Shown piece after piece: positions 8,772-49,911 of a stretch of DNA of 64,000 nucleotides. The DNA lies in NCBI GenBank assembly GCA_949286705.1, contig CASEDF010000002.1, positions 1 to 64,000 on the forward strand, given 5' to 3'. Each line of letters opens with the position of its first letter. Within the stretch, counting starts at the first letter, position 1. Below the pieces are notes generated by a model that had not been told where the DNA came from, searched no databases, and saw only the letters and a list, made by a program, of their open reading frames with translations. The stretch comes from an uncultured bacterium. GTDB taxonomy: Bacteria; Cyanobacteriota; Vampirovibrionia; Gastranaerophilales; Gastranaerophilaceae. The translations under genes were made by a program, and so were the position numbers.

Positions 8772-8876
8772 AAAGCCCCTCTCCCGAATTTCTAACACTC
8801 GCAAATGCTCGTATTGAAATTCTACCCTCTCCCCGGGGGGGGGAGAGGGTGTCACGTAGTGACAGGAGAGGGGCAA
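8772..8876. repeat. Full-length CCCCTCTCC...GGAGAGGGG palindrome without a gene
   Basis: This is the most complete gene-less copy of the large palindrome. The left arm AAAGCCCCTCTCCC is followed by an inner hairpin whose arms are GAATTTCTAA and TTGAAATTC around CGCAAATGCTCG, then TACCCTCTCCC. The centre is a C/G run containing nine G. The right arm GGAGAGGG contains the inner hairpin GTCAC-GTA-GTGAC and closes with AGGAGAGGGGC. The layout is the same as the arms of the DUF559 element at 22651-23171. Confidence 0.8.
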
Positions 8877-38081: not shown

Positions 38082-38771
38082 ATGAGAAGATTTGCATTCA
38101 CTCTGGCGGAACTTTTGATAGCACTTACAGTTGTTGGTGTGGTTGCTGTGTTGACAGTGCCCGGCGTTACAAAAAATATCTATGCAAAATCTAATATAGT
38201 TAAATTGGAAGCTACCGTCAAAACGCTTAATGATGCTCTTAATAATATGATGGTTAATGAACGTATTACTCAGGTTACTGACGGATCTTTGTTTAATGAT
38301 TCGGATGAATTTATAAGCAAGTATTTGAAAATTACCTCGGATTGTCATAATGATGATGAGGATTCGTATGATGCTGATTGCATTATAAATGCATCCACAA
38401 TAGAACAAGCGGCTCCACCCCCAGGAGGAGCAGTGCAGGCGCGTCTATGTGGCGGGCTTGCTGGTAGCACCAATTTTTTAGTAAAACTCGCTAATGGCGC
38501 AAAAGTCCGTTTTTGTGATTCGTCTTCTTTGAGCGGTACACCGGGCTATATCCTCATTGATGTTAACGGCAGTGATGCACCGAATGTATACGGACGTGAT
38601 GTTTTTGAGGTTGAGGTTCTGGATGACGGTACTGTCGGGCAGGGAAATTATATTGAAGCGAATAATGTTAGTGATGAAACAATATTAAATAATTGCCGCA
38701 GAAGTAGTAGCTATGCGGGATTTTACTGCTATTATCTGTTAGAACATAATAATTGGGAGATGAATTACTAA
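38082..38771 (+). CDS. Type IV prepilin-like protein 1
   Basis: Prepilin-type protein of 229 aa with a short leader MRRFA, then FTLAELLIALTVVGVVAVLT; the cleavage is expected before the F or after the A as in class III or type IV prepilins (the leader lacks the usual G). The N-terminal helix is followed by a globular part with two paired Cys regions (DCHNDDEDSYDADC, NCRRSSSYAGFYC). A block GYILIDVNGSDAPNVYGRDVFEVEV near 170-195 and the last residues NNWEMNY are shared with the next two genes. Likely pilus or pseudopilus component displayed on the surface. It is first of three tandem genes and its own promoter is visible. Confidence 0.85.
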   Translation: MRRFAFTLAELLIALTVVGVVAVLTVPGVTKNIYAKSNIVKLEATVKTLNDALNNMMVNERITQVTDGSLFNDSDEFISKYLKITSDCHNDDEDSYDADCIINASTIEQAAPPPGGAVQARLCGGLAGSTNFLVKLANGAKVRFCDSSSLSGTPGYILIDVNGSDAPNVYGRDVFEVEVLDDGTVGQGNYIEANNVSDETILNNCRRSSSYAGFYCYYLLEHNNWEMNY

Positions 38772-38774
38772 GGT

Positions 38775-39416
38775 ATGAAAAAAGCTTTTTCTTTGGCAGA
38801 ATTATTAATAGCTTTGACAATTGTGGGTGTTGTTGCAGTGCTTACAGTGCCTCATGTTATGCGTAATGCTTTTTTAAAATCCAATATAGCAACTTTGCAG
38901 CAAACATATACCAAACTTTCCGAAAATATTAAGTCTGCGATGCTTGAAGAAAGAATTCAGCTTTTGGAAGATCTTGACCTTCCTCTGGTCAGTGATGAAG
39001 ATACGCAGGCTCATGCTTTTATTAAAAAGTATTTTGACATTTCAAAGGATTGCGGCGGTGCTCTGAGCGGATGTTTTGCAGACGCTTATAAAGATATTGA
39101 AGGCAATTCCCGAAGTGATATGTTTTCTTTTTATGATTCTGCGGAGTTTTTTGTTCTGGCTAATGGCGCAGCCGTTGCTTTGCCTGAAAATGTCACAGGA
39201 TATATATTTATTGATGCTAATAATGTTGATCCTCCGAATGTTCTGGGCAGAGATTTATTTGTTTTTCATGTCGATAATAAGGGTAACACGTCCGCAAGGT
39301 CACCTCTTGCCAATCACAGCCTTGATAATATAGCCGCTGATTGCAAAACTTTTAGCGGTTACTGGATTTCATGCCTTGAATATTTAGAGGCGAATAATTG
39401 GAGTATGGATTATTAA
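38775..39416 (+). CDS. Type IV prepilin-like protein 2
   Basis: Paralogue of the previous gene, 213 aa, starting three bases after its stop. The leader MKKAFSLAELLIALTIVGVV is directly followed by the hydrophobic helix and then HVMRNAFLKSNIATLQQTYTK. The shared block is YIFIDANNVDPPNVLGRD and LFVFHVDNKG, and the end is NNWSMDY. Cys pairs DCGGALSGC and DCKTFSGYWISC are present. Function within the pilus (major, minor or adhesin-like) is not readable. Its shadow frames are ignored. Confidence 0.85.
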   Translation: MKKAFSLAELLIALTIVGVVAVLTVPHVMRNAFLKSNIATLQQTYTKLSENIKSAMLEERIQLLEDLDLPLVSDEDTQAHAFIKKYFDISKDCGGALSGCFADAYKDIEGNSRSDMFSFYDSAEFFVLANGAAVALPENVTGYIFIDANNVDPPNVLGRDLFVFHVDNKGNTSARSPLANHSLDNIAADCKTFSGYWISCLEYLEANNWSMDY

Positions 39417-39426
39417 AGGAGTATAT

Positions 39427-40062
39427 ATGATGAAAAAAGCTTTTACTTTGAACGAATTGTTAATAGCTGTCGCTGTAATCGGTATTATTTTGATTATTAC
39501 CGTGCCGATTGTGTATTCTCATTTTAGTAAAAAATCTCAGGTGGCAGGTTTGCAAAGAGTTTACACCGCAGTTACAAATGCAGTTAAACTTATGATGATT
39601 GATGAAAGGGTTAAATCTATTGCAAAATCTTCGTTATATCTGGATGAAGGTGATACTGTAGCTAATACGGCGGGTGCTTTTTTAAAAAAATATTTTAATG
39701 TTAAGACGGATTGCGGAACTGAACCCGGCGAATGTTTTGCAGCATCTTATGTTAATTTGAATCAGGAAGCCATAAATTTACCGTCTTCTAATGAGGCTTA
39801 TTGTGTTATGACTTCTACAAATGCTTCTGTATGTCTTACACCTCCCGAGGAAACCAGAGCCGCAAGAGTGCTGGTTGATGTGAACGGACCCGCACGGCCG
39901 AATATCGCCGGCAGAGATTTATTCCTGTTTTACATTTACGGCGACGGATTTATCGGTGACAGAGTATCTAACTCTGATACTACGGAAGAATGCCGTTCCA
40001 ATTCATACGGTTCCGGCTGCTTTAACAGGATTGTCAATGCTGATTGGTCTATGGATTACTAG
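39427..40062 (+). CDS. Type IV prepilin-like protein 3
   Basis: Third tandem prepilin-like protein, 211 aa, beginning MMKKAFTLNELLIAVAVIGI. Here the residue after the leader alanine is F and the position-5 acid E is retained (FTLNE). The shared block is VLVDVNGPARPNIAGRDLFLFY and the end NADWSMDY. Cys pairs DCGTEPGEC and ECRSNSYGSGC are conserved in placement. The stop codon adjoins the ATG of the flippase gene, so the last pilin and the flippase are likely on one transcript. Confidence 0.85.
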   Translation: MMKKAFTLNELLIAVAVIGIILIITVPIVYSHFSKKSQVAGLQRVYTAVTNAVKLMMIDERVKSIAKSSLYLDEGDTVANTAGAFLKKYFNVKTDCGTEPGECFAASYVNLNQEAINLPSSNEAYCVMTSTNASVCLTPPEETRAARVLVDVNGPARPNIAGRDLFLFYIYGDGFIGDRVSNSDTTEECRSNSYGSGCFNRIVNADWSMDY

Positions 40063-48730: not shown

Positions 48731-48747
48731 TTATAGGAGAAAAGCTT

Positions 48748-49911
48748 ATGAAAATGTTGAGAGAACTGAAGAACGGGGGGGGGGCGCCTCCTCTAACTAG
48801 TAGTAGCAAGGGTTTTAGGGATTATGGAACCCCTCTCCCACAAGGGCGAGGAACTGTCTCTAAGAAACAGGCTGCCTTCACTCTTGCAGAAGTTTTAATA
48901 ACCCTTGGAATAATCGGTATAGTTGCGGCAATAACAATACCGACACTTGTTCAAAAATATCAGGAACGTGCTTGGAATACTGCTGCAAATGTTTTTCAGA
49001 GAAAACTTGAAACTGCTTTAGGTGTTATGAATAGCCAGAATACCCTTGCTGGACATGCAAGTACATTCAGCTTTGTCAATGAACTTTCTAAGCATCTTAA
49101 AATAACTAAAATTTGTTCCAATGACGACTTAATCAATTGTTTTGAGGATAAAGTTTATTGGAATATTATTGATGTTGTGACAGGTACTTCTACTGAGGAA
49201 ATAAGCATTGCTGATATTCATACTGCATCTGATTTGGGTCAGGATGATTGGGATAGTGAGGTGATAGGTTTTCAACTGGCAAATGGTTCTGTCGGTTTGA
49301 TTGCATATAATCCGGAATGTAAGGCAGACCAGTATAATAATCAATTTACCGGAACTTCTTGTATCTCTATGATTTATGATACTTCAGGTTTAAAAAAGCC
49401 CAATACCTATACTAAGGATTTACGTGGTGTTAATTCTAAATTAACAAATTGTGCGTTTAAAATTGGGGGTACTTGTTTTTCTCAGCCCTTTAAGGCTGAA
49501 AGTTATTTGACATTTGATGAATGTCAGGCGTTAAAATCTACGTTGGGAATTGAATATTGTTATGCAAACAATGCCCCCCATAACCGCGACACTAACTATT
49601 ATGCTGCTGCTGCAAAAATTTGCGGAGGCGCGGACAATTTCCCTACACATTCAGAGTTGTGCAGTGTAGCTGAGTATTTATATAATGTTGACTCTTGTGA
49701 GGAAGTGTCGAGTATATCCTCTATTGATGGCATACACCTTGATAAAGATAAACTTGATGCCCTTGGTATTCCTTTGAATACTAGTATATTCACGTCTGAA
49801 AATGGTTACACCGGTACAGGAGCTTTTACCTTTTATCAAAAAAACATATTTAGTGCAGGCTCTGTTAATGGCGCATTTTATCCCCATAATTATGCGATTT
49901 GCAGACTTTAG
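48748..49911 (+). CDS. Prepilin-like protein with long leader and G10 tract
   Basis: Type IV prepilin-like protein of 387 aa. The ATG at 48748 follows AGGAG by nine bases and reads MKMLRELKNGGGAPPLTSSS. The prepilin core FTLAEVLITLGIIGIVAAIT begins only near residue 44, so the leader is about 43 residues, of which residues 28-35 (GTPLPQGR) come from a CCCCTCTCC palindrome (48828-48852). A homopolymer of ten G (48775-48784) lies at residues 10-13. The globular part carries seven or more Cys (CSNDDLINC, CYANN, CGGADNF, CSVAEYLYNVDSC). Slippage at the G run would switch the frame off, so phase variation is plausible. It converges with a Usp gene directly at the stop. Confidence 0.8.
   Translation: MKMLRELKNGGGAPPLTSSSKGFRDYGTPLPQGRGTVSKKQAAFTLAEVLITLGIIGIVAAITIPTLVQKYQERAWNTAANVFQRKLETALGVMNSQNTLAGHASTFSFVNELSKHLKITKICSNDDLINCFEDKVYWNIIDVVTGTSTEEISIADIHTASDLGQDDWDSEVIGFQLANGSVGLIAYNPECKADQYNNQFTGTSCISMIYDTSGLKKPNTYTKDLRGVNSKLTNCAFKIGGTCFSQPFKAESYLTFDECQALKSTLGIEYCYANNAPHNRDTNYYAAAAKICGGADNFPTHSELCSVAEYLYNVDSCEEVSSISSIDGIHLDKDKLDALGIPLNTSIFTSENGYTGTGAFTFYQKNIFSAGSVNGAFYPHNYAICRL
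48775..48784 (+). repeat. Homopolymer of ten G near the start of a pilin gene
   Basis: Ten consecutive G start at codon 10 of the prepilin gene (48748). They code for Gly-Gly-Gly and the first base of Ala. Runs of this length in G are prone to slippage in bacteria, and the downstream core would be out of frame if one base were gained or lost. Confidence 0.9.

Follow-up and report, generated by a model that had tools for sequence, protein, structure and literature searches.

The best-documented cases of phase variation are those of cultured pathogens and of a few commensals. The small genomes of Campylobacter harbour numerous contingency loci made of simple repeats, the poly-G phasomes (PhasomeIt), which give combinatorial states and serve several surface functions. 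The sortase-dependent pili of Bifidobacterium breve UCC2003 (bbr_0113 and bbr_1889) are switched when replication slips on a G tract (PMC9187656). In pathogenic Neisseria, a poly-G tract in the pilus gene pilC, of 9-20 G as tabulated, gives ON/OFF switching and the modal poly-G length is reported to be 9; the pilin gene pilE receives sequence from silent pilS loci by gene conversion (PMC5953494). A G10 tract is present near the beginning of a type IV prepilin-like gene of 387 aa (48748-49911, +) in the window, the whole 64,000-nucleotide stretch of DNA analysed here. Comparison of its sequence with related modules suggests that this tract is most probably a slipped-strand, reversible phase-variation switch of a large pilin repertoire, one of dozens of genes of this kind.

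The gene is preceded by a Shine-Dalgarno-like AGGAG (48735-48739, +), with the ATG 8 nt further on, and this layout of Shine-Dalgarno sequence, ATG and tract is common to the other tract genes. The nine codons ahead of the tract (48748-48774, +), a whole number of codons, are poorly conserved between genes. The tract, which is the proposed switch, consists of exactly ten G (48775-48784, +), begins 27 nt, or 9 codons, past the A of the ATG at 48748 and opens codon 10. By a Markov estimate, 0.012 G runs of at least ten are expected in the window, and overlapping matches to GGGGGGGG number 5 in the window against 0.4 expected from shuffles. The tract is followed by a conserved block (48785-48816, +; CGCCTCCTCTAACTAGTAGTAGCAAGGGTTTT), for which a tally of bases in 42 modules of this genome gives the consensus CGACTCYYCYA...GCAAGGGTTTT. 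The leader insert contains a palindromic repeat, read from the sequence as CCTCTCCC-ACAA-GGGCGAGG (48832-48851, +), and a DNA search finds a repeat resembling it also at C1:3820 of the same genome. The prepilin N-terminal motif KKQAAFTLAEVLITLGIIGIVAAIT (48862-48936, +) is located by the PF07963 match, and prepilin peptidase is expected from the known motif to cut before F44 (codon 48877). The 387-aa product matches PF07963 with 26.9 bits (cut-off 21.2; 3.1e-6) and TIGR02532 with 20.2 bits (cut-off 16.3), and both the prepilin N-terminal cleavage/methylation motif and the hydrophobic stretch are present. Its PDB matches are geopilin chains and cover the N-terminal helix only, and its AlphaFold model is too low in confidence to be of use (pLDDT 36). 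The coordinates, the open reading frame and the PF07963 and TIGR02532 matches confirm the preliminary description in that ten G lie at codon 10 of a prepilin gene.

The 387/388-aa prepilin is obtained in a frame test at G10 or G13 only, and translation of the window gene ends after 15-17 codons at G8, G9, G11 and G12. A change of one base thus decides whether the gene is in frame, as had been proposed for its pilin core, and the same applies to the other tract genes. Downstream of its tract, the window gene has no in-frame ATG, GTG or TTG ahead of the prepilin core, so that the downstream start that had been named as a case against the switch is absent from it. The leader had been described as non-conserved. 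This is correct for the codons ahead of the tract and for the insert after it, but incorrect for the tract and the approximately 32 bases that follow it, which recur as a module at the start of more than 40 pilin genes.

The genome from which the window derives, a relative of Candidatus Gastranaerophilales MAGs, comprises 1.85 Mb in 41 contigs, and a DNA search of it returns many partial copies of the window module. The single-gene reading was dropped once these copies turned up; it had understated what is a genome-wide system. The genome contains 67 G runs of at least 8, with both strands counted, and 55 of them are located within 1 kb upstream of prepilin matches. Conversely, a G run or C run of at least 8 lies within 1 kb upstream of 55 of the 85 prepilin matches of the genome, where approximately 3 are expected. 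The main module consists of a Shine-Dalgarno sequence, an ATG, 6-10 codons (usually 9 counting the ATG), G9 or G10, CGACTCYYCYA, a variable leader and FTLAEVLITLGIIG, with a distance from ATG to tract of 18, 21, 24, 27 or 30 nt. In the main modules, the base directly ahead of the run is a C in 39 of 42 cases and the CGACTC after the run is nearly invariant, while the codons ahead vary. Six pilin genes (L058, L072, L077, L083, L092 and L093) have C9 on the sense strand in place of G; their AGTCG-C9-GA resembles the G module on the opposite strand, by shared origin or by chance. A third form of the module reads ...TTTTCA-G10-CAGTAGCTTAACCTCC. The pilin bodies are diverse: beyond residue 60, no pair reaches 90% identity, and the median among detectable pairs is 29%. 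A single prepilin peptidase gene and homologues of MutS and MutL are found in the genome; loss of mismatch repair as a cause is unsupported, because both homologues are present. The module has no exact match among viral contigs and no Rfam match, and a phage origin and an RNA element were therefore rejected. Three consecutive prepilin genes of the window (38082, 38775 and 39427; 38082-40062) lack a tract and have leaders of only a few residues, and they are likely to encode constant pilins. Other long runs are also present. The G9 at 8835-8843 of the window is located within a palindromic repeat (ACCCTCTCCCC-GGGGGGGGG-AGAGGGT) away from pilin starts and is unlike the switch runs. An in-frame G9 in a 559-codon open frame without a pilin match (L044, G000:C2:94823) possibly marks a further slippage-prone gene, and a G13...C12 palindrome in a low-complexity stretch (L086, G000:C16:19586-19625) is possibly an assembly artefact.

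In 47 genes, a start codon is followed by a tract and a stop-free leader; 7 of them, including the window gene, are in frame (ON) and 40 are out of frame (OFF). In-frame genes with stops in the leader are left out of the ON count, and an automatic scan of the same genome with slightly different rules gives 7 ON and 38 OFF. The 40 OFF genes have G9 (30 genes), C9 (6), G8 (2), G10 (1) or G11 (1), so that most are one base short; some tract genes of this genome are off by one base in the opposite direction. The leader from tract to core is 7-521 nt long in this set. In the pilin frame, the 47 leaders, 11,552 nt in total, contain no stop, by selection of the set; their two remaining frames contain 306 and 373 stops. 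The OFF genes are not simply decaying, because these leaders are stop-free and only 8 of the 55 tract genes have a leader stop or no clear start. In six OFF genes, only 7-17 nt separate the tract from the core, so that another start is impossible; a start downstream of the tract is thus ruled out for these six genes as well as for the window gene. The leaders of tract pilins, such as 48817-48876 in the window and those of L031 and L081, contain in-frame interspersed palindromic repeats (TPLPQGRG, CHAELVSAS and SPRND). Leaders of this class also contain pilin-core copies in truncated form (KKAAFTLAECATHVDMSDNIRRVAFTLAEV). It looks as though a leader that is removed tolerates insertions.

The length of the tract was compared between copies, species and genera, with one length per tract taken from assemblies and one genome per species in the collection. 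Among 191 pairs of modules that are at least 85% identical through the tract, the length differs in 41, and near-identical modules of differing tract length, as expected of contingency loci, occur within the genome and in sister species. The nearest sister of the window module (G000:C19:19245; 89% identical over 71 bp) has G9 and is OFF. In the window's genus, the tracts are almost all G9, one base short (35/45; 20/21 in G009; 23/24 in G012). A same-genus species with a module of its own (G003) has lengths of 9, 11 and 12, with ON at 11. Lengths are 11, 12 and 13 with ON at 12 in G024 and 9, 10 and 11 with ON at 10 in G018, both of other genera, and 10 and 11 with ON at 11 in G021. The flanks and the ON lengths differ in other genera, and the layout is unchanged. 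Across 25 species, 32 of 194 genes (16%) are ON, less than one third (p = 1.7e-7, as a guide only, since the genes are related and the genomes unevenly sampled). The genes of the relatives were sampled by the tract itself, which biases the share of tract genes upward. Of the genomes sampled from the family, 45 of 117 (about 40%) show the start-plus-tract pattern, as do 18 of the 41 sampled genera, with a reversed-pattern control near zero; the pattern is essentially absent from the other sampled families of the order. Among 84,980 named species genomes, the motif of the genus is detected only in Candidatus Gastranaerophilales records and in the uncultured-bacterium assembly SI.B5.metabat-bins.116.

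Slippage would best account for two of these features, the lengths on both sides of ON within single modules and the OFF genes with long open leaders, and the earlier suggestion of pilin phase variation by poly-G finds its best support in this comparison. Against it, free switching might be expected to spread the lengths more widely than the near-uniform G9 of the window's genus, three pairs of orthologues across species have equal lengths (9/9, 9/9 and 10/10), and the MutS and MutL homologues should lower the rate of slippage. The G9 genes could instead be expressed by programmed recoding without a change in DNA, if RNA polymerase adds a G or ribosomes slip back by one base. If so, the genes would normally work in the G9 state, and the G9 tracts of the genus would be programmed slippage sites from which dozens of pilins are produced at low, set levels from permanently out-of-frame DNA. 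The G10 genes, including the window gene, would be constitutive escapes, and we know of no larger recoding-dependent bacterial gene family. This would explain why the tracts of four species of the genus are nearly all G9, exactly one base short, behind which the leaders have stayed open, and why the C-tract modules are likewise C9 and one base short. However, the tracts of G024, G018 and G003 vary to both sides of ON within one module, some genes in the window's genome deviate by one base in the opposite direction, and a modal G9 is also reported for the phase-variable poly-G genes of Neisseria (PMC5953494). Programmed recoding is unlikely, and it is retained as the main alternative because nearly every tract in the window's species and its nearest relatives is G9.

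It is far less likely that the tract has no role at all, the lengths being assembly errors or the pilins starting beyond it. Homopolymers are error-prone in assemblies, and the leaders of 8 of the 47 genes contain an in-frame start behind a weak Shine-Dalgarno sequence. Nevertheless, the window gene and the six short-leader genes have no in-frame start between tract and core, the position, spacing and frame recur in dozens of genes and 25 species, and the control with the reversed pattern is near zero. This explanation is already contradicted by the repeated architecture. A role of the tract block mainly in recombination, in which pilin genes swap starts or bodies through shared 5' modules and the G run is part of the signal, would fit modules that are far more alike than the bodies behind them and a C-tract module that resembles the G module read on the opposite strand. 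It leaves unexplained the kept distance from ATG to tract, the kept frame from tract to core and, in several genera, the concentration of lengths around the in-frame value, and is extremely unlikely as the main role. Such a role could coexist with the switch instead of replacing it.

The bacterium thus probably carries a large set of pilins that are turned on and off by copying slips. According to the proposed phase-variation mechanism, DNA polymerase would slip on the G run and gain or lose a G within the population. At G10 or G13, translation would proceed from the ATG through the tract and the leader into the pilin. At G8, G9, G11 or G12, it would stop after about 16 codons, and the pilin would be absent. 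The tract is located inside the leader that prepilin peptidase should remove, so that switching would determine whether the pilin is made without changing its mature sequence. With about 47-55 such genes, of which some 15% are ON at any one time, the cells of a population would differ in their pilin sets and form a mosaic. Exposure of the pilin on the surface and its antigenicity are assumed from the gene class. Phase variation appears to govern most of the pilin repertoire in an uncultured lineage near the non-photosynthetic, gut-associated Gastranaerophilales. If this is true, these bacteria vary their pili on a seldom-seen scale, and annotation presents dozens of live genes as frameshifted or mis-started.

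The B. breve pili resemble this system in that an early G tract separates start and pilin body, which are one base out of frame in the default allele and are joined by slippage (PMC9187656). They differ in that they are sortase pili with Sec signals, encoded by one or two clusters per genome, whereas about 55 genes of a single genome encode type IV prepilins in this unrelated bacterium. Neisseria pilC encodes a pilus-associated protein, not a pilin, and is present in one or two copies. Neisseria pilE/pilS is similar in its large repertoire of pilin sequences; however, a system of one expression locus and silent cassettes does not apply here, where the 47 genes are scattered and each has its own Shine-Dalgarno sequence and start codon. 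The Campylobacter loci serve several surface functions, whereas nearly all loci here belong to one gene class. No report of phase variation in the group related to Gastranaerophilales was found in the open-licence full texts searched. What differs from the known systems is the scale, which extends to the majority of the pilin genes, the position of the tract in the leader of type IV prepilins, and the lineage.
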